Shown piece after piece: positions 1 through 9,659 of a DNA stretch of 64,000 nt. Where the stretch lies: contig NZ_FCOJ02000042.1 of NCBI RefSeq assembly GCF_001545035.1, forward strand, positions 1 through 64,000, in the 5' to 3' direction. The stretch's first letter is position 1, and each line of letters starts with the position of its first letter. A program made the position numbers and the translations under genes. The notes under the pieces were generated by a model, which saw only the letters and a list, made by a program, of their open reading frames with translations, did not search any database and was not told the DNA's origin. This stretch comes from Caballeronia glebae. Lineage in GTDB: Bacteria; Pseudomonadota; Gammaproteobacteria; Burkholderiales; Burkholderiaceae.

Positions 1-651
1 ATCTATGCTCAGCCGCGTGGCGAATTGCGCCGCCAGTTGATTGCCTGCCTGCGCCACGGCCACAACACCCGCATGTCCCGCACGCGCGGTACAGACCGAC
101 GCGGGCAGATTCCCGAGATGGTGAGTATTCATGTGCGCCCACCCGAAATCGAGGACCGCCTGCTGCCTGGCCACTGGGAAGGCGATTTCATAAAAGGCGC
201 TGGGAACCAATCCTCCGTTGGCGTGCTGGTTGAGCGCACCAGCCGGTTGGTGCTGCTTGCCAAGATGGAGGACGCTACCGCCGCCTCAGCTCTGGCAGGC
301 TTCTCGGCCAAACTCAACTCGATTCCTGAACCCCTGCGCCAGAGCTTCACCTATGACCAGGGCAAGGAACTCGCGCGGCATCAGGAACTCGCTGCGGCTA
401 CCGGCGTGCGCGTGTACTTCTGCGACCCCCATAGCCCCTGGCAGCGCGGCACATGTGAAAACACCAACGGGTTGCTGCGCCAGTACTTGCCCAAGGGAAC
501 CGACCTCTCGGTCTACACACAAGACGAACTCGATGCTATCGCCGACAGCTTGAACAACCGGCCGCGCGCAACTCACGCGTTTCATTCACCGTTCGAGGTC
601 TTCGCCGCCACGCTCGCCTCAGCAAGCCAACCTCAAGGCGCTAAACATTAA
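1..651 (+). CDS. IS30-family transposase, C-terminal part (5' end outside window)
   Basis: The reading frame is open from the first base, so the N-terminal helix-turn-helix lies outside the window. The visible part is the DDE integrase-like core: GHWEGDFIKG carries the first Asp, TYDQGKE the second, and the segment around CENTNGLLRQY carries the Glu. These spacings and the closing RPRATHAFHSPFEVF-like segment are typical of IS30 transposases, which cut and join the element ends. Nothing in the visible part looks broken. Its position marks the left flank of the accessory region. Whether the full element is intact cannot be judged here. Confidence 0.9.
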   Translation: MYAQPRGELRRQLIACLRHGHNTRMSRTRGTDRRGQIPEMVSIHVRPPEIEDRLLPGHWEGDFIKGAGNQSSVGVLVERTSRLVLLAKMEDATAASALAGFSAKLNSIPEPLRQSFTYDQGKELARHQELAAATGVRVYFCDPHSPWQRGTCENTNGLLRQYLPKGTDLSVYTQDELDAIADSLNNRPRATHAFHSPFEVFAATLASASQPQGAKH

Positions 652-657
652 CCCCCC

Positions 658-686
658 TGTTGCACCTCGGCTTGAAACCGCCAGTC
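658..686 (+). repeat. Candidate right terminal inverted repeat of the IS30 element
   Basis: Seven bases after the transposase stop there is a TGTTGCACCTCGG segment followed by CTTGAAACCGCC. This resembles the inner-to-outer reading of IS30-family ends. The partner repeat is outside the window, so the boundary is an estimate. Confidence 0.4.
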
Positions 687-914
687 TATAAAAAGAACGA
701 CCTCAACCCTTTTTGAATCCTCCGAACGTTCGGGCTCGTCAATCATCCGCATGAACGCCTTATCTGTCTTCCGTCCCCCTTGTTGCGTCATGCGCGCGAG
801 AAAGCGCTAGGCCACTGGCCAGCCCAGAGAAGCCGCCTGACCAAACAAGCGATATGGCTTCGCTTTGTCCTCGTAGTAATGTTTTATTGCACTCTCGTAA
901 ATCACTGCCTAAGG

Positions 915-1295
915 CTAACTCTGCGGGGCATTTTTGCTGTCGCTGACCTGCGAGCAAGTAGGTGAGAGCACGGCACCCGATGCATAGTAGTCTTTGTTGA
1001 GGGCGCCCGGGGCCTTCGATATCGCTTCAGTCACCTCGCTTACTGGGACGCAAACGAAGTCCTGTCAAGCGAGACTGAGAAGTCCGTTCGTGCAAGGTAG
1101 GCTTGAACGAACTTTCCGCTGTCGTCGACCTCGCTGAACGGTTCCTCATGGGCAACAACAAACGGATTTGACAGTCCCATGGCCTTCGAAACAGAGATGG
1201 CAAGCTCAGCCGGCGAGTCAGTTGTATTGCCTAGGTTCTATAACGCCCTAAAACCCACTGTTCGCCATTACATAGATGTATCCGATGTTGCTCAT
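915..1295 (-). pseudogene. Broken GIY-YIG (T5orf172/MUG113-like) nuclease gene
   Basis: On the minus strand an ATG at 1295 begins MSNIGYIYVMANSGF, which matches the start of GIY-YIG proteins of the T5orf172 type (GYIYV motif). A TAG follows at 1248-1250. After a frame change near 1225-1240 the frame reads LGNTTDSPAELAISVSKAMG and then a PFVVAHEEPFS segment, as in the conserved middle of the family. After a second frame change near 1058-1064 it reads FVCVPVSEVTEAISKAPG and ends at a TAG at 915-917. One stop and two frameshifts make it non-functional as it stands. The family call is by eye from motifs; the coding origin of the three pieces is well supported by their order and fit. Confidence 0.6.
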
Positions 1296-1387
1296 TTCGC
1301 CCTACGTTGACTGTCTGCGCCTCGCTCTTTGTCGATAGAGCTCACATGCCTACGTGACTCCTCATGTCTTGTGCGAGTGCGTACCAT
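1292..1387 (-). other. Short 31-codon frame bridging the helicase and the GIY-YIG remnant
   Basis: An ATG at 1385-1387 overlaps the helicase stop (TGATG). The frame runs 31 codons and its stop overlaps the ATG of the GIY-YIG remnant (ATGA at 1292-1295). The peptide is very basic and has no recognisable domain. It may be a translated linker that couples the two genes, or chance. Confidence 0.2.
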
Positions 1388-2787
1388 CAGCGTGACGTTC
1401 GGTTATATAACGCGTCGTCTGCAGGAAGCAAGCTAGTGACTTCGCCAGTATGGGTCAGCAACAATGCGTCCTTTGCACGGGTTATGCCCACGTACAAGAG
1501 GCGCCCATCTTCAGCACATATCTCGTCTATTTCGTCCGGCTCGACCTCTTCTAAATACGGTAGTTCTGTAGCCGACAAGAAGGGGAGGATTACCCTGTCG
1601 AACTCAAGCCCCTTAGCCGAATAGTACGTACCGTAGTACGCTCCTTGCCCCGCGTTCCAATCCATACGCTCCGCACGGAGTTCGACTGCAGTCTCGGGGA
1701 GATACGGCCTAATTTCATGGAGCTTCTCGTACGTTCGCAGCAGAACTGCCACCCTCTGGGTACGGTGCCATTTAGCCACGACGTTACCTACTAGAACACG
1801 CTCCTTCTCGGGGTCGTCGAAGCTCACTAACCAAGGCTTAGCTCCCTCGGCCGCTGATGGAATAGGCGCAACTACGTCTGGTCCTGCTACGAAATATGGC
1901 ATTTCCGACAGAGCGACCGCAAGGTTGGCGATATCTCGTTTGTTTCGATAATTCAGTTCGAATCGCCAAACCAGGCGCGTCTGAAGGCCTGCCTCGCGCC
2001 AACTCATTCCCCGACCTTGACCATAGATTCGCTGCGCTACATCTCCAAAGAACGTGATAGACCCGTCAGACGCAGTTGCTTTTGCCAACGACCGAATCAT
2101 CTCAAGCGACAAATCCTGCCCCTCATCGATGATGACGTGCTTGTACTTTCGTGGATTCATGTCTTCGTCGAGCGACGCTGACACCGCAGCAGCGATGTCG
2201 TCCATGTCGTATAACTTTCCGATTCCTCTCCTAAGTTCTCGGTAGCGCTCAAGAATCTCCCACATGACCGGCCGTAAGGCTCGGTTCATCTGCGCGGAAG
2301 CACGGCCCGTGCGGGTCACTGCGTTATAGTGCTCAACAGACTGGATATTGCGTCCGTTCAGCCATTGAATCTCATCAAGAAAAAATTTCAGAGGTCGACG
2401 AAAGAAAGGGGCGTCCTTGTGAACTGCTTTGACATCTCCAAGCGCACGCTCAATCAACTTTTGGCGTTGCTGACTAATCGCGATGTTACCGTCGCGAAAC
2501 TTGCCGCGCGACTTTAGATAATTACGCGCGAATAGGTGATAGTTACACACGTCAACATCGTGAGGAATGTCGATTCCAAAGCTTTTGATGTAATTCATTA
2601 ACGCTTTGTTGTACGTGACAATCAATGTTCGACCAGCATCAGGAAGGAGCTTGTTCGTGAGATACACAGCACGGTGGATGGCCATCGTGGTCTTACCGCT
2701 CCCGGCCGTTCCAAGTACCACATGCTGTCCAGAGCTAGGAAGACAGACCACTTCCCGTTGCTTTCCGATTGGTTTAGGCAATGTCAT
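1387..2787 (-). CDS. Compact UvrD-like SF1 helicase (copy 1)
   Basis: This 466-residue protein has the full set of superfamily 1 helicase motifs: Walker A GTAGSGKTT (about 26-34), DEGQD (about 221-225), GDVAQRIYG, a YR-containing motif IV region, and YVGITRAK near the C-terminus. It is much shorter than UvrD or PcrA (about 700 residues) and closer in size to GajB-type helicases of defence systems. It is a close paralogue of the helicase at 5826-7226, identical at about 53 of the first 60 residues by eye. Its stop leads into the broken GIY-YIG gene. It has its own 5' region, separated from the upstream glycohydrolase gene by 487 bases. It probably translocates on or unwinds DNA; its role in conflict is inferred from context. 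Confidence 0.85.
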   Translation of the reverse strand: MTLPKPIGKQREVVCLPSSGQHVVLGTAGSGKTTMAIHRAVYLTNKLLPDAGRTLIVTYNKALMNYIKSFGIDIPHDVDVCNYHLFARNYLKSRGKFRDGNIAISQQRQKLIERALGDVKAVHKDAPFFRRPLKFFLDEIQWLNGRNIQSVEHYNAVTRTGRASAQMNRALRPVMWEILERYRELRRGIGKLYDMDDIAAAVSASLDEDMNPRKYKHVIIDEGQDLSLEMIRSLAKATASDGSITFFGDVAQRIYGQGRGMSWREAGLQTRLVWRFELNYRNKRDIANLAVALSEMPYFVAGPDVVAPIPSAAEGAKPWLVSFDDPEKERVLVGNVVAKWHRTQRVAVLLRTYEKLHEIRPYLPETAVELRAERMDWNAGQGAYYGTYYSAKGLEFDRVILPFLSATELPYLEEVEPDEIDEICAEDGRLLYVGITRAKDALLLTHTGEVTSLLPADDALYNRTSR

Positions 2788-3274
2788 GTAATTACATCGC
2801 TGCTCGCAGCGTCCTTATTATTCTTTGAGTGCGTCGGGACTCAAGCGGTTGGGCTAGCCGGAACACAACTACGCAGCGATTCGGTTGCTTCAACGCTCGC
2901 AACCTTGAACACTGTAACCGCAGCCCGAAAAATGCAAAGCAACTTTGCCGCCTTCTAACGAAATTGCTTATTTCGCGTAGAGACATAAGGAGTCGAACAG
3001 TTTAACCGGCTAGCGCATGGAAATTGTACCTAAAAGCCCGTAACTGGGCGACTACCTGTGGGCACCCATTGAACCGCTGCTGCCCCCAACCCGGCACCTG
3101 CAAACGCTGACTCGACGCATGAAGGAGAAATATCTCTGCTCGGCGCTACTGAAGCGAGACCTTCTGCCCATCTTCCATCGCGCGCACTGCCAATGATGCC
3201 TGCCACTCGCTCGGTCTTCGTGAAGTTCAGAAACACGATATTGGCGCTCGATGTACTGAGCCGTTCAGTGCCGC
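2788..3274. other. Gap between helicase copy 1 and the glycohydrolase gene
   Basis: No gene is convincing here. A minus-strand TACAAT at 3023-3028 follows a small GCCC/GGGC hairpin with a T run (about 3031-3050). These could be the terminator of the upstream operon and a promoter for helicase copy 1. A 68-codon minus-strand frame at 3030-3236 resembles nothing known to me. Confidence 0.3.
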
Positions 3275-5140
3275 TCAGTTCATCGCGTGAGTCTTCGACC
3301 GCTCAAACACCTCGATGGCATACCCGGCCGGGTCGCGACACTCGAAAGAACGAGTATTTCCTCGAACTAGAATCTCAGAGAACTCAACTCCCGCTTTGGT
3401 CAGTCTTTCCAAACATGAGCTTACGTCAGAGACGTTGACGAAGAGTTTGACTCCTCCACAAGATACCGGAGCGCTCTCATCCTCTCGAAGGGCAAGAGTT
3501 GAAGAGAAACGGACAACCTTCTGCGATGCGCCGGTGACTTTCAATCCAAGAAACCTCTCATAGAACACGCGCGATGTGTTGAGGTCTCTAACTAGCAGGG
3601 ACATACCCACCGCCGGTTCAAAATCACCGTCCGAGTGGTAGGGACTCTCCACTGTACCTTCTGGCTTTCGAACGACGCCCTGAGCACTTTCGGCTTTTTG
3701 TACAGCGCCCTCCGGACTTTCCTCATTCTGTGAGGCGCCTTCCAAATTTATCGTTCTTTGACCGATGGCTTCTGGACTTTCAGCTTTCTTAGAACTGCTG
3801 TTTGGAATGAATAAGGTCAATCCAGCGTCTGTCGCAACAACAAGCGTTTCCACAAGGCGTTCGCCGATTTGCTCTTGGCGATTTTCAACTGATGCCACTC
3901 GAAGCCCAATAGGCAGCGAAATGCCTGATGCTGCTTCCTTGTCTCCGAGCCGGCCTTTGAATACATTGAGGTCTCGCTTTGTTATCTCTTTGCAAACCGT
4001 AGGGGTTTTGCGCATAAAAACCAGATGCTCTGCGGTCCGCCGAATGTAGGCGCCGTCCTGGACCTTTTCGTCATAGTCCTGCAACCAGGACATGCCATTT
4101 ATCGCTCCCAGAAGACTAGCAGTCATAGATGCAAGAGTGTCTGTATCTGCACCCTCGGCAGTAGCTGCGTAACGCATCCCCTCGGTTGGAGAAGCCGCAT
4201 ATCGAGACGCGTAATACAGTGCTGCAACAGACGTGGTGGTACCAGCGCCATTTGTTCTCGGACTCAGACCTCCGAGTTTTTTCATTACCGCCATGTCGTC
4301 CGACAGCACACCGGCGTCAAGACCATCTATGGCGTGACGGCAAAGACTCATCACTTCACTCACCGTAGAGAGCCAAAGCCCATTGAAGTCTTGTACGTAC
4401 TTTTGTGTAGCCGAAACCCACGAGGGCCACTGACTCGAGATGTCGGGTAGCGTTGCCCAGACCGATATCTCCTCCGCGCATCGATGAAGCAGAGACCCGT
4501 AATCGAGCGTGTCGACTCTCTTGAAGGCATTCCACAAGATATACCCAAAAGCTAGCGCGCCCACTAACGCACGTGGATGGCCATGTGTAGTCACAGCGTC
4601 GGCAAGGATGTCTCTAGCCAACGCGGAGAAGTGGTCGTCCCTTGCACGAGATACGCAGTGGGGCAATACGCGCATCGCGCCGCCATTGCCTCCCGCTTCA
4701 AAGTATCGCTTAGCGACGTCCTTAGCCTCGGAGTCCCACGGAGCAGTTCCCGCGAGCCACGAATTGGCTGCCCGCTTCGTCGCCCCGCCGCCACCGCGCT
4801 CGTAGCAGGTCCAGAACGGCAACTCGACGCGAGCAAAATGCTCCCACCAGTTCTGTTCTGTCGCCCGTGAGCGCGAGATTGCGAGGATGAGTTGGGTATC
4901 GTCGCTATAGGCGCCCGCCTCGACTTGCTCCCAGCGAGGTGAAAATCTGCTGCCGCTGCGTCTCGTCCAATTGAAGAACTGGCCGTCCCATTTCCGAATA
5001 TCGACTTTGCCGACAGCTCTGCCCTCGAAAGGCCAGCCGAGGGCGTCCCCCACAGCAGCCCCGACAAACGCTGCGAGAGCACGTTCGGGGCTCGTTGTGG
5101 TCGTCTGCTCTACAGGACGGTTCAGAATGCTGTCGGTCAT
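3275..5140 (-). CDS. ADP-ribosylglycohydrolase (DraG/ARH type) fused to a VOC/glyoxalase-fold domain
   Basis: The start is the ATG at 5140, which overlaps the DarT-like stop as ATGA; the frame is open further upstream but that part overlaps the previous gene. Residues about 20-400 are a DraG/ARH glycohydrolase, a family that removes ADP-ribose from macromolecules using two Mg ions. The signature motifs are present: GDALG (31-35), SDDT (79-82), GGNGGAMR (150-157), THGHP (185-189) and GADTDTLA (330-337), so the metal site looks intact. A linker of imperfect SPE/EGA repeats (about 450-505) leads to a C-terminal VOC domain (about 515-621) with a LLVRDLNTSRVFYERFLGL start and a DPAGYAIEVFE end. 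It probably reverses the modification made by the DarT-like protein. The role of the VOC domain is unknown; it may bind a small ligand or modified base. Confidence 0.85.
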   Translation of the reverse strand: MTDSILNRPVEQTTTTSPERALAAFVGAAVGDALGWPFEGRAVGKVDIRKWDGQFFNWTRRSGSRFSPRWEQVEAGAYSDDTQLILAISRSRATEQNWWEHFARVELPFWTCYERGGGGATKRAANSWLAGTAPWDSEAKDVAKRYFEAGGNGGAMRVLPHCVSRARDDHFSALARDILADAVTTHGHPRALVGALAFGYILWNAFKRVDTLDYGSLLHRCAEEISVWATLPDISSQWPSWVSATQKYVQDFNGLWLSTVSEVMSLCRHAIDGLDAGVLSDDMAVMKKLGGLSPRTNGAGTTTSVAALYYASRYAASPTEGMRYAATAEGADTDTLASMTASLLGAINGMSWLQDYDEKVQDGAYIRRTAEHLVFMRKTPTVCKEITKRDLNVFKGRLGDKEAASGISLPIGLRVASVENRQEQIGERLVETLVVATDAGLTLFIPNSSSKKAESPEAIGQRTINLEGASQNEESPEGAVQKAESAQGVVRKPEGTVESPYHSDGDFEPAVGMSLLVRDLNTSRVFYERFLGLKVTGASQKVVRFSSTLALREDESAPVSCGGVKLFVNVSDVSSCLERLTKAGVEFSEILVRGNTRSFECRDPAGYAIEVFERSKTHAMN

Positions 5141-5829
5141 ACGGCAGTCTCGATTGGACGGCGCCCCGTCCAAATGTGGTTGGTCAGCGATATTTTATCG
5201 AACAGGTCCGGAGCGACGACCATTGGCACCTTCGGTGGCGCAAGACCCAGAGTGTCCCACCGAGCTCTCTCAGTACTGGCCTGCCTCTCCGTCAACATGG
5301 CCATACCCTGAATGGCTTCGATAGGGATGGGTCCGCGCACCAGGACCTCTGCTTGGAGGTCCGTCGGTGAGCAGGACAGATGTGTGGCATGACGCCTGAA
5401 AACCCTTCCTCCCGCTCCTTGGACTCTGGCGGCAAACATGGACTCGTACCCCGGCCAGCCGTCCGCTATCAACGAGCCGTTCTCGGCAGCCGCATTCCTT
5501 TGGCAAAAAAGCGTTCCGGGCGACCACAACACCACCGGGTCGATGAAGAGTATCACCCAGTCGAGGAAAATCAGTTCCTTCTTTGTCACGATGTCAAGGT
5601 AGTATCCGTTCGGATACTCAACAGAGCAGCAAATCTTGTCCAGATGCCCGTCCCGACGGTACGCGTCCGTCGGATTGACCTCGTCGCGAGCTTCCATGCT
5701 CAGCGTCTGCCGGTCCTTCAGATAACCCGATGCCAAGACATGGATGAGATTCCGTGACGGGGTAAAGTGGCACAGGCGCGTAATGCCCCGTTTGGCACAA
5801 TCATCCAGGATGTTCTCGTTCACCGTCAT
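5137..5829 (-). CDS. DarT-like (DUF4433) ADP-ribosyltransferase
   Basis: This 230-residue protein matches the DarT family, whose studied members ADP-ribosylate thymidine or guanine in single-stranded DNA. It has the N-terminal RLCHFTPSRNL segment (His21, expected to contact NAD), a VNPTDAYRRDG region, a CSVEYPNGYYLD strand, and LQAEVLVRG with Glu161 in the place of the catalytic Glu. The start overlaps the stop of the helicase as ATGA (5826-5829), and its own stop overlaps the next start in the same way, so the three genes are very likely translated together. No DarG-type macrodomain gene is present nearby. The base and strand specificity cannot be read from sequence. Confidence 0.8.
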   Translation of the reverse strand: MTVNENILDDCAKRGITRLCHFTPSRNLIHVLASGYLKDRQTLSMEARDEVNPTDAYRRDGHLDKICCSVEYPNGYYLDIVTKKELIFLDWVILFIDPVVLWSPGTLFCQRNAAAENGSLIADGWPGYESMFAARVQGAGGRVFRRHATHLSCSPTDLQAEVLVRGPIPIEAIQGMAMLTERQASTERARWDTLGLAPPKVPMVVAPDLFDKISLTNHIWTGRRPIETAV

Positions 5830-7226
5830 CGCGAGGTTCGGTTGTAAAGCGCATCGTCTGCGGGCAGCAACTTGGTGACATCGCCAGTGTAGGTTAGCAC
5901 CAAGGCAGTCTTTGCCCGAGTGATGCCGACATAGATGAGCCGGCCGTCTTCGGCGAAAATCTCATCCATCTCGTCTGCCTCGATATCCTCCAGACTCGGA
6001 ATTTCAGCGTCGGACAGGAAGGGAAGAACCACGAGGTCAAACTCAAGGCCCTTGGCTGAATGGTACGTGCCGAAATATGCACCATGCCTTGCCGTCCAAT
6101 TCGCACCCTCTTCCTTCAGTTGCACCGCCTCGTCTGGCAGATACGGACTGATTTCTCGAATCTTCTCGTGAGTGCGCAGCAAGACCGCCACGCTCTGAGC
6201 ACGGTAACGCCTTTCCACCACCGTGCCGACCAACTCCCGCTCCTTTTCAGGGTCAGCGAAGTGAACGAGCGACGGCTTCGGCCCATCGGCAGCGGAAACA
6301 ATCGGCGTAATCATGTCCTGGCCGCCCAAAAAGTAAGGCATATCCGACACGGCAACCGCCAGTGTGGCGATGTTTCGAGTGTTTCGATAGTTTTGCTCGA
6401 AGCGCCACACCTGCCGAGTTTGAAAGCCTGCCTCACGCCAGCTCATCCCGCGGCCGTGACCGTAAATTCGTTGCGCCACATCCCCAAAGAACGTGATGGA
6501 CCCGTCCGGCGGGATAGCCTTCGTCAATGACCGAATCATCTCGAGAGATAGGTCTTGTCCTTCGTCGATGATGACGTGCTTGTACATTCTTGGGCCCTTG
6601 TCACGGTCAAGCGATGACGACACCGCCGCCGCTATGTCATCCAGGTCATAGAGCTTCCCTCTTTCCAGCCTCAACTCCCTGTAGCGCTCGAGTATCTCCC
6701 ACATGATAGGGCGCAGCACGCGACTCATCTGTGCCGAGGCGCGACCCGTACGGGTCACCTCGTTGTAACGGTCGACCGACTCGATGTTGCGCCCACACAA
6801 CCACTGAATCTCGTCGAGGAAGAACTTCAGCGGACGATGGAAGAAGGGGTGGTCCTCGTAGCCTTCTTTGACATCCACAATCGCTCGCTCGATGAACTGC
6901 TCGCGCTGCCGTCCGACAGCGATGCAACCATCTGGGAGTTCGCCACGGGACTTGAGATAGCCCCTGGCAAAGCGATGATAGTTCCGAACGTCAACATCTT
7001 CAGGAATCTCGCGTCCGAAGCTATTGATGTAGTTCATTAGCGCCTTGTTGTACGTGACAATCAAGGTGCGGCCTGCGTCCGGAAGCAGGTTGTTCGTCAG
7101 GTATCTTGCGCGCGCTATGGCCATCGTGGTCTTGCCACTACCCGCAGTACCGAGCACAACATGTTGTCCGGATGCCGGCAGGCACACTACCTCAAGCTGC
7201 TTTCCGATTGGTGTTGGCAATGCCAT
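5826..7226 (-). CDS. Compact UvrD-like SF1 helicase (copy 2), first gene of the DarT-like operon
   Basis: The 466-residue protein carries Walker A GTAGSGKTT (26-34), DEGQD (221-225), GDVAQRIYG (248-256) and YVGITRAK (432-439), so it should be an active ATP-driven SF1 enzyme. It has the same length as copy 1 and ends with the same LYNRTSR. Its stop overlaps the DarT-like start, which ties it to the ADP-ribosylation pair. It could expose single-stranded DNA for a DarT-type enzyme or act as the sensor of invading DNA. A role like GajB of Gabija is an analogy based on size and family. Confidence 0.85.
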   Translation of the reverse strand: MALPTPIGKQLEVVCLPASGQHVVLGTAGSGKTTMAIARARYLTNNLLPDAGRTLIVTYNKALMNYINSFGREIPEDVDVRNYHRFARGYLKSRGELPDGCIAVGRQREQFIERAIVDVKEGYEDHPFFHRPLKFFLDEIQWLCGRNIESVDRYNEVTRTGRASAQMSRVLRPIMWEILERYRELRLERGKLYDLDDIAAAVSSSLDRDKGPRMYKHVIIDEGQDLSLEMIRSLTKAIPPDGSITFFGDVAQRIYGHGRGMSWREAGFQTRQVWRFEQNYRNTRNIATLAVAVSDMPYFLGGQDMITPIVSAADGPKPSLVHFADPEKERELVGTVVERRYRAQSVAVLLRTHEKIREISPYLPDEAVQLKEEGANWTARHGAYFGTYHSAKGLEFDLVVLPFLSDAEIPSLEDIEADEMDEIFAEDGRLIYVGITRAKTALVLTYTGDVTKLLPADDALYNRTSR

Positions 7227-8436: not shown

Positions 8437-9252
8437 TCAGTCGCTGGCAAGCCCTTCGGGATGCGCGAACTCTTCGGTCTGAGCCTCAATTGAGAGGCGC
8501 GTGTTCCTAACCTCGTAATCTTCCGATTCGCGATTATTCACCTCGTCCAACACAGCCGCTTGGTATTCGTCAAAACTCTTGCCGTGTTTTAGCGCCGAAG
8601 TCAAAGCAAATACACGGTCTTCAAGGTAGCGAATGCGCTCAGCCATCCGACGCTCAAGCTCGAACAGCTTGCTAGGCAAATCAACAAGAGTGATGTCAGT
8701 CCACGCTTTGCGGATTCGCTCGTCTCGCTCAATCTCAGCCGTCGCGAACTGGACAGCGTGCTTGTCGGCAACGTCGAGGATGGTGCGCTTTTGAGGCCAG
8801 GGCTGACTTTCCTTGGATTCCTTCCTTGCGCGAAGTCGCTCCTGATTCTCTGGCTTCGACTGGTATTCGAGCAACGCCTTCATCGCCCATTCGGGGCAAA
8901 ACCGGCTGCTAGGTTTGCCGGGCTCGATTAACCACGCCTGCACGGTGCGAGCTGAGACGTTCCGAGATGCGAGCTTAGAAATTACGGACGCTACGAATTG
9001 GCGGTCACCCGCGAATTCGCTCTCCACCATGGAGCGCATCCGGGTGCGGCGCCGTTCGTCGTGCATGGCCACCCACAATTCCTCTTTCAGCGATTCAATC
9101 TCCGTCCGAGAGAACTGCTGTCTCGGACCCGATATTGGCCGAATGGTGATATCAGTTGGCGATTGCGTATTCCGAGCGTATTCAATAGTAAAGACGGTTC
9201 CGGTCTCTTTATGAGTGCCCTGACTGCTCAGGTACGAATAAATCCAAGTCAC
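8437..9252 (-). CDS. Putative DNA-binding protein with helix-turn-helix-like and coiled-coil segments
   Basis: The frame is open from 9312, but a GTG at 9252 preceded by AGGAGAAGG is the likely start; the longer version would begin inside a perfect palindrome. The product has 271 residues. The middle (about 100-150) contains VISKLASRNVSARTVQAW followed by a Pro and Ser turn and an Ala/Leu helix, which reads like an XRE-type helix-turn-helix. The C-terminal part (LFELERRMAERIRYLEDRV) is likely coiled coil. The palindrome just upstream suggests autoregulation. No exact family is recognised. Confidence 0.6.
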   Translation of the reverse strand: MTWIYSYLSSQGTHKETGTVFTIEYARNTQSPTDITIRPISGPRQQFSRTEIESLKEELWVAMHDERRRTRMRSMVESEFAGDRQFVASVISKLASRNVSARTVQAWLIEPGKPSSRFCPEWAMKALLEYQSKPENQERLRARKESKESQPWPQKRTILDVADKHAVQFATAEIERDERIRKAWTDITLVDLPSKLFELERRMAERIRYLEDRVFALTSALKHGKSFDEYQAAVLDEVNNRESEDYEVRNTRLSIEAQTEEFAHPEGLASD

Positions 9253-9659
9253 AATGCCTTCTCCTACGCGTCCAATGCGCACATTGTGCGCGCACAATGT
9301 GCGCATCGTCAACCTTCGGTTGTGTGCCTCGGACGGTAAGCGCTATCTTGAGGACGAGAAGGCTCGGTTTGGCCGTGGCCGCACTGCAAGAGCGAAATTC
9401 AAAAGTAATGGCCCGGCGCCTTTGTAGAAGATGCCAGCCGCCGCCCTGCCCACCGTGCTGACCGAAAGTTTTCTCGCGAACGCCATCGCGGATTTCGACC
9501 TTGTCTCTCGCGAAGTATCTTTGTAGCGAGCGATGCTTGACCGCATGCGGCGCGCACCGATTGCCTGCAGTGTTCAAGTGAAACTTCGGAGGGGGATAAG
9601 GAGCGGAGTCAGTGATGACTCTGCCGTACAGGGACACCGGCGCTGGCGCGTTGTGTATG
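9253..9659. other. Upstream region of the DNA-binding protein gene
   Basis: Apart from the palindrome at 9275-9306 nothing here looks coding. A 67-codon minus-strand frame at 9343-9546 has no recognisable features. Confidence 0.4.
9275..9306. promoter_or_regulatory. Perfect 32-bp palindrome, candidate operator
   Basis: The two 16-base arms (ATGCGCACATTGTGCG and its exact complement) meet with no spacer. The right end lies 22 bases before the GTG of the putative DNA-binding protein, a normal place for a promoter or operator. The inner unit TTGTGCGCGCACAA is itself strongly symmetric. Confidence 0.6.

Follow-up and report, generated by a model that had tools for sequence, protein, structure and literature searches.

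A 64,000-nucleotide stretch of the Caballeronia glebae genome (NCBI RefSeq assembly GCF_001545035.1, contig NZ_FCOJ02000042.1, positions 1 to 64,000; "the window") contains three overlapping minus-strand genes, in the order helicase, DarT, ARH, that may constitute a mobile toxin-antitoxin or defence module. They encode a UvrD-like superfamily 1 (SF1) helicase, a DarT-family ADP-ribosyltransferase (ART) and an ADP-ribosylglycohydrolase of the ARH/DraG fold (Table 1). In our preferred interpretation, to which we assign a probability of roughly 0.55, the module would represent a third class of DarT system, in which a toxin with shifted base or linkage specificity is held in check by an ARH antidote and acts in phage defence. 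The computed basis for this interpretation comprises the genes and their overlaps, intact folds and sequence motifs, recurrence of the three-gene arrangement, exclusivity of the antitoxin kinds, co-divergence of the three proteins, a correlation between DarT residues and antitoxin kind, and genomic context.

The three genes recur together. Our survey covered plasmids, viral contigs and genomes, and 60 of the 61 loci that were read hold a total of 62 DarT genes (two loci have tandem DarTs). Complete helicase-DarT-ARH triads are present in 15 of the 61 loci, distributed among Proteobacteria (the window, Trinickia (L002), two genomes of the window's order (L096 and L099), Shinella, Cereibacter and a Salmonella plasmid), Actinomycetota (two Streptomyces and one Rhodococcus) and five viral contigs. 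The helicase and DarT genes are joined by a 4-nt ATGA or GTGA overlap in 13 triads and abut as TAAATG in the other two. A sixteenth ARH-DarT pair, from Nostoc (L006), is preceded by a 1251-aa SF1 helicase of the AAA_11/AAA_12 type. When the search was run in reverse, starting from ARH, a DarT gene adjoined the related ARH in 8/8 plasmid records and in five of six viral contigs, the sixth contig ending at the start of the ARH gene. Because the triads span distant groups and the ARH search leads back to DarT, we rejected the possibility that the three genes are chance neighbours. Moreover, the distances of the three proteins are correlated across the 15 triads (Mantel r 0.93-0.96, with 0 of 5000 permutations for each pair), such that helicase, DarT and ARH co-diverge, as expected if they are inherited together. 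The first-pass annotation, which was made from the sequence alone, had described the three genes as joined by two ATGA overlaps and had called for a survey of neighbourhoods for conserved triads; both junctions read ATGA on re-examination, and the triad is indeed recurrent.

The survey also shows that antitoxin kinds exclude each other beside DarT. Classified by adjoining gene, 16 of the 62 DarTs are linked to ARH, 21 to NADAR, 19 to a macrodomain gene and six to none of these, and no DarT adjoins two kinds. For ten sampled neighbours the kind was confirmed with Pfam (six NADAR-DarT1 and four Macro); these ten supplied the profiles used to call the remaining NADAR and macrodomain neighbours, and profiles from early triad members served for the ARH and helicase neighbours. 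A helicase was scored as preceding DarT if it was of the window type, on the same strand and within 150 nt. By this definition, the helicase lies upstream of 15/16 ARH-linked, 1/21 NADAR-linked and 0/19 macrodomain-linked DarTs, and of one of the other six (L037), where the match is weak and corresponds to a NERD-helicase (E about 1e-9). Neither the three window proteins, as searched with Pfam, nor the genes beside the window DarT include a macrodomain or NADAR, which extends the earlier remark that no macrodomain is seen. For plasmids, 15 of 20 matching records were read (H8, H13, H16, H19 and H20 were left out); for the short duplicates (L001, L009-L017 and L040-L068), longer stretches covering those loci were used; L094, in which the match was a 73-aa open frame and the fetched stretch held no DarT, was dropped before counting; and a second Cereibacter plasmid (L107) was examined outside the 62 DarTs counted.

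One locus provides what appears to be a natural exchange of antidote. In L089 (genome G671, of the window's class; 525-3334), an SF1 helicase gene overlaps a DarT gene by ATGA, and the next gene, convergent on the opposite strand, encodes a NADAR protein (NADAR-DarT1, 299 bits). This locus is distant from the triads (25-30% identity for the helicase, 20-29% for DarT), and its DarT has Leu at the position of DarT1 Met71 and Arg and Tyr at those of K74 and Y75, three positions considered below. In this one case, therefore, the antidote slot seems fillable by either family, and the DarT residues seem to go with the kind of antidote and not with the helicase. Together, the mutual exclusivity of antitoxin kinds and the NADAR swap in L089 support the idea that ARH occupies the antitoxin slot beside DarT and may serve as the antidote, and it is in this comparative sense that the earlier proposal that ARH replaces DarG stands.

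Several lines of evidence place the window transferase close to DarT1. It matches the Pfam DarT family (PF14487) with 64.1 bits against a cut-off of 22.5 and gives a single weak match (19.5 bits) in PADLOC 2.0.0. Its AlphaFold model (mean predicted local distance difference test score, pLDDT, 85.5) is closest to DarT1 8baq by Foldseek (TM 0.70/0.77, 2.8 Å, 32% identity), and all eight matches with E ≤ 0.001 are DarT1, DarT or DarTG entries, the other seven being DarTG or DarT of M. tuberculosis, Thermosipho or Thermus (query TM 0.51-0.55, 12-15% identity). DarT1 active-site residues were taken from PMC11543638 (this and the other papers cited here are drawn on in excerpt) and mapped through a pairwise alignment to E. 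coli C7 DarT1. DarT1 residues H17, F18, T19, R52, D54, S63, N104, Q150 and E152 correspond to identical residues H21, F22, T23, R58, D60, S69, N112, Q159 and E161 in the window protein. Glu161, which the first-pass annotation had picked out as catalytic, thus aligns with the E152 described in that paper (Ala in the crystallised DarT1 chain), and its position is occupied by Glu in 59 of the 60 aligned DarT rows listed (all of the 62 but L088 and L093) and by a gap in the other one. Loss of NAD-binding residues had been named beforehand as a result that would speak against the assignment; instead, the window protein retains its NAD-site residues, among them the NAD-binding His21, as well as its catalytic residues, and DarT1 is the closest structure.

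The ARH-linked DarTs differ from DarT1 at active-site positions. In a seven-residue DarT1 active-site set (H17, R52, D54, S63, M71, N104 and E152), six are kept in the window protein and Met71 is replaced by Tyr77. Ser69 (S63 of DarT1, Tyr in DarT2) is Ser in 15/16 ARH-linked and 18/18 DarT1-side NADAR rows, and Tyr in 17/19 macrodomain-linked rows, and Asn112, corresponding to the base-coordinating N104 of DarT1, is kept in 16/16 ARH-linked DarTs. The Met71 position, by contrast, separates the two groups that share these residues: it is aromatic in 15 of the 16 ARH-linked DarTs (Nostoc has Met) and in none of the 21 NADAR-linked DarTs, which have Met (17), Leu (3) or Ala (1). Lys74 and Tyr75 of DarT1 contact guanine (PMC11543638); when their positions are read without a gap, the first is K or R in 2/16 ARH-linked versus 17/21 NADAR-linked DarTs and the second is Tyr in 0/16 versus 10/21, the window residues being Ile80 and Val81. 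The Met71 comparison is the firmer of the two because the position lies three residues past a largely conserved Asn, without intervening gaps. Given these differences at the Met71 position and, with less weight, at K74/Y75, we infer that ARH-linked DarTs yield a product other than guanine-N2-ADP-ribose, distinct in its base, atom or geometry.

A maximum-likelihood tree, rooted at its midpoint, groups the ARH-linked DarTs with the NADAR-linked DarT1s (39 rows, support 100/98), apart from the macrodomain-linked DarT2s. The ARH-linked DarTs form two supported groups (seven rows, 98/93; eight rows, 100/100) plus the long-branched Nostoc row, in which some 340 residues that match no Pfam family precede the DarT domain (L006:6029-7624). 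The earlier statement that some DarT2-type toxins are paired with NADAR proteins holds in part: NADAR pairing does occur, and PMC11543638, in the passages available, describes it for DarT1 and not for DarT2, yet two DarTs in our survey (L088:4993-6199 and L093:4263-5512), which the midpoint-rooted tree places on the side of DarT2, are accompanied by NADAR. In two other loci (L076:4854-6121 and L077:4955-6190), tandem DarTs, of which the upstream copy groups elsewhere in the tree, are followed by a single macrodomain gene, and these upstream members account for two of the six DarTs that adjoin no antitoxin kind.

The glycohydrolase matches ADP_ribosyl_GH (PF03747) with 118.8 bits against a cut-off of 26.2, and its C-terminus forms a glyoxalase/VOC domain (32.5 bits against a cut-off of 20.6) that the first-pass annotation had overlooked when it described, correctly, a DraG/ARH hydrolase with intact metal motifs. 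The SDDT, NG.AMR and T/S-HGH motifs are present in 16/16 DarT-linked ARHs, and the last metal motif reads DTDT in 12 of them, DTDS in the other four. A VOC-like tail is found in six of the 16 (the window, L002, L003, L004, L005 and L018), all of which belong to the seven-row DarT group. PADLOC 2.0.0 returned no match to the ARH. In the structural model (mean pLDDT 68.9) the core is largely confident and residues 449-571 form a low-confidence stretch; it matches MJ1187, ARH3, DraG and two ART-immunity ARHs (8za7 and 6dre, which we take to be Tre1-Tri1) with similar scores. The likely position of the DraG-specific Asp97 reads GGGG, with no Asp, in a part of the pairwise alignment that is gapped.

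The helicase has UvrD_C (77.4 bits) and UvrD-helicase (51.4 bits) domains and contains GTAGSGKTT, DEGQD, GDVAQRIY, NYRN, KGLEFD and YVGITRAK, which we take to be SF1 motifs. It can fairly be called compact, as it had been, because it has 466 residues and the five best-matching helicase chains have 647-774. Its top PADLOC 2.0.0 scores were against GajB and NERD+UvrD models, a likeness to Gabija and other defence UvrD-like helicases. Gabija is defined by GajA, an OLD/TOPRIM nuclease, together with GajB; the window operon encodes only the helicase, DarT and the ARH with its VOC domain, and Pfam searches of the three proteins revealed no GajA-like nuclease, so we rejected identity with Gabija.

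Published work on DarT describes modification of single-stranded DNA and a block to replication, with a hydrolase partner protecting the host. From such parallels and from the comparisons above, we infer a DNA target, an ARH antidote, a specificity shift, a helicase acting as supplier or sensor, and a role in phage defence. In the resulting model, DarT would transfer ADP-ribose from NAD+ onto a nucleobase of single-stranded DNA, thereby blocking replication, and the overlapping SF1 helicase would open or mark foreign DNA (of replicating phages or plasmids) and thereby make the DarT substrate available there. In a cell free of infection, ARH would clear host DNA of the mark, and infection would tip the balance between toxin and antidote. 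The toxin, lying on the guanine-modifying DarT1 branch, would probably have shifted its specificity toward a product that is hydrolysable by ARH and not by NADAR. A more specific version of the model, which we regard as tentative and somewhat short of even odds, holds that the ADP-ribose goes to neither thymine N3 nor guanine N2 but to a different base or atom, that the ARH is dedicated to DNA bases and DarT is brought to foreign DNA by the helicase, and that the residue at the Met71 position predicts the antidote family.

A number of observations weigh against this model. Met71 is essential in DarT1, which is inactivated by M71A (PMC11543638), and therefore an aromatic residue there could mean either that the chemistry is different or that activity has gone. 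The comparison at K74/Y75 is fragile and weaker than that at Met71, because the pairwise alignment places a two-residue gap just before these positions and sets other window residues opposite them. Sub-clade II, which holds eight of the 16 ARH-linked DarTs, keeps R58 in 8/8 members and D60 in only one. The DarT rows are related, so the residue counts do not represent independent events and a Fisher test on them overstates independence. The ARH-linked DarTs form no supported single clade, and since constraining them together is not rejected (p-AU 0.111), a single origin would be neither shown nor rejected by the tree. Additionally, the DarT of L095 (genome G127, 3740-4582, minus strand) branches basally in the ARH group of the window (97/87) and has the same aromatic residues as that group (NNYYF). 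Its contig ends on the upstream side, and its neighbours include neither an ARH nor a NADAR nor a macrodomain protein; this DarT may be a remnant. The DarTs of L035, L037 and L039 are likewise without a recognised antitoxin. DarT homologues lacking the helicase and ARH neighbours, which the first-pass annotation had listed as evidence against its view, thus exist, and apart from these four loci nearly all of them lie in other sub-branches with NADAR or macrodomain partners. The survey was partly seeded with the window DarT, so that class sizes are not population frequencies, and the module is rare: it is present in 2/398 other genomes of the window's order, searches by DarT found no further triads among 397 other genomes of the phylum, where one match (G454) is a fragment, and searches by ARH, which scored at most three candidates per genome among the matches listed and may miss some, found none in 397 other phylum and 368 other class genomes. 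Published biochemistry also speaks against an ARH acting on bases, in that S. coelicolor SCO5809 and the human ARHs are reported as inactive on guanine-ADP-ribose in RNA (excerpts of PMC11833690) and S. coelicolor ARH-like proteins as inactive on uridine-ADP-ribose, human ARH3 being weakly yet measurably active on a synthetic uridine-ADP-ribose probe (excerpts of PMC13036486).

Other explanations account for parts of these data. The same module could operate with a DarT that still modifies guanine N2, the ARH family having converged on the reaction catalysed by NADAR. Placement on the DarT1 side of the tree, the DarT1 fold match, conservation of Asn112 in all 16 ARH-linked DarTs and the helicase-DarT-NADAR arrangement of L089 are all compatible with this scenario, but the Met71 position (and K74/Y75, if read without the gap) differs systematically from that of NADAR-linked DarT1s, and the ARHs assayed in PMC11833690, as far as its excerpts go, fail on guanine-ADP-ribose; we consider it rather unlikely. 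Alternatively, the operon could be a DraT/DraG-like switch, in which the ART modifies a protein, most simply the co-encoded helicase as effector, and ARH removes the mark. A helicase does precede 16/16 ARH-linked DarTs (15 of the window type and one other SF1), ARH1 acts on arginine-modified proteins (PMC7050489), and ART-ARG pairs are known or predicted (PMC3482391, PMC9503650; PDB 6dre, 8za7). The transferase, however, is a DarT, for which the published reports available describe action on single-stranded DNA bases; Asn112, Ser69 and Gln159 are kept; and the antidote slot of L089 is taken by NADAR, a base de-ADP-ribosylase. These features make a protein-directed switch improbable.

The association of the window-type helicase with ARH (15/16) over NADAR (1/21) could instead mean that the helicase belongs to the antidote side, unwinding modified duplex for ARH or for excision repair, and lesions made by DarT of enteropathogenic E. 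coli are removed by RecF recombination and by nucleotide excision repair including UvrD (PMC7003065). It is the toxin gene that the helicase gene overlaps, however, and not the ARH gene, and the helicase stays with DarT where NADAR replaces ARH, albeit in one distant case (L089); a repair-helper role is accordingly improbable in our estimation. Finally, a function in regulating replication rather than in defence, as proposed for M. tuberculosis DarTG, whose genes are co-transcribed with that of the replicative helicase DnaB (PMC12170906), seems highly improbable for a module whose helicase is small and UvrD-like, whose distribution is sparse and includes plasmids, viral contigs and places near defence genes, and which lies in a stretch of low GC content in the window.

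We compared the window module with the closest known systems. With DarTG1 (DarT1-NADAR) the window module shares the DarT1-like fold, the Ser of the ART triad, the base-coordinating Asn and a hydrolase gene directly downstream; it differs in having ARH in place of NADAR, an aromatic residue at the Met71 position and an SF1 helicase directly upstream. Because no NADAR lies beside the window DarT and Met71 is not kept, we rejected a plain DarTG1. With DarTG2 (DarT2-DarG) it shares a DarT-family toxin and an adjoining hydrolase, and the co-transcription of M. tuberculosis darTG with dnaB (PMC12170906) offers a further likeness. Nevertheless, no macrodomain antitoxin was found beside the window DarT, Ser69 stands where the H-Y-E triad has Tyr, and the helicase is UvrD-like and not DnaB, and DarTG2 was rejected as well. 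DraT-DraG likewise combines a transferase with a DraG-fold hydrolase, but its transferase is of another family, and Asp97, which is specific to DraG, may be absent from the window ARH, as read in the gapped alignment. The ARTs of ART-ARG toxin-immunity pairs are secreted and target proteins. Such pairs (Imm-ARG, PMC3482391; PDB 6dre, 8za7) resemble the window operon in having an ARH gene beside an ART that it presumably neutralises; in excerpts of that 2012 paper, Imm-ARG is strictly tied to ARTs of the R-S-E clade, whereas the window ART is a DarT with an H-S-E arrangement (His, Ser, Glu). PMC9503650 mentions an ART-ARG pair from phages of Aeromonas, as well as DarT paired with Macro or NADAR. 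In open-licence PMC full texts we found no description of a DarT-ARH pair or a helicase-DarT-ARH triad, and the string "DarTG3" in one text proved to be DarTG with the citation number 37 attached.

So far, two classes of DarT have been described, and their antidotes are unrelated to each other. If our interpretation is correct, a third class would draw on the third family of enzymes that remove ADP-ribose, making the set complete, and ARHs acting on DNA bases would be predicted, set against published assays that, in the excerpts available, report no activity on guanine and weak activity of human ARH3 on a uridine probe. Through the correlation between residue and antidote, DarT specificity can be put to a direct test; a dedicated helicase may reveal by what route DarT gains access to single-stranded DNA of an invader; and a new base mark, if real, could serve in DNA-modification tools.

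Defence-type settings are seen in the neighbourhoods of several of these loci. The Nostoc DarT-ARH pair (L006) sits inside a BREX locus, the L018 triad lies between type I restriction-modification and Mrr genes, that of L030 is beside Tmn, and that of L005 is near multiubiquitin/ThiF and Abi genes. Phage gpA, capsid or Zot genes are present on the contigs of L027, L023 and L026. Separately, an Azospirillum plasmid (L037:3-4624) carries a helicase-related gene, an MZB-domain gene (annotated DUF1998) and a NERD-helicase gene, followed by the DarT without a recognised antitoxin, a set that presumably resembles DISARM.

Table 1. Features of the window operon and its second helicase (positions in the 64,000-nucleotide window).
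Feature	Position	Strand	Basis
UvrD-like SF1 helicase, compact, 466 aa	5826..7226	-	Open reading frame, Pfam
DarT-family ADP-ribosyltransferase, 230 aa	5137..5829	-	Open reading frame, Pfam, model
ARH/DraG-fold ADP-ribosylglycohydrolase, 621 aa, with low-confidence linker and C-terminal VOC/glyoxalase domain	3275..5140	-	Open reading frame, Pfam, model
Helicase/DarT ATGA overlap	5826..5829	-	Sequence
DarT/ARH ATGA overlap	5137..5140	-	Sequence
Solo second helicase, 466 aa	1387..2787	-	75% identical to triad helicase
ARH C-terminal VOC domain, about residues 515-611	about 3308-3598	-	Pfam

The earlier three-gene account was accurate as to its genes but missed the second helicase (Table 1), which stands alone with no DarT or ARH of its own adjoining. 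We considered whether it is the remnant of a second triad and rejected this, since tblastn across the window revealed no other DarT or ARH remnant. GC content per kb is 0.50-0.59 in the first 11 kb versus 0.60-0.68 from 11 to 20 kb, and this low GC makes it plausible that the first 11 kb are an acquired island, with which the composition is consistent. Near the edge of the low-GC stretch is a fragment of an IS30-like transposase gene (25-651, plus strand; labelled by eye), and upstream of the operon is an open reading frame of 291 aa (8437-9312, minus strand) for which a Pfam search gave no match. A promoter scan found three candidates against a shuffle mean of 3.5, and thus no excess; terminator-like sites numbered 11 against a shuffle mean of 7.1 (sd 2.3). 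Searches of phage records and for near-identical plasmid DNA gave no match. The window's genome encodes a single DarT, and a scan of genome contigs with this one sequence identified one relative, in Trinickia; the nearest relative found is Trinickia fusca, whose DarT is 87% identical.

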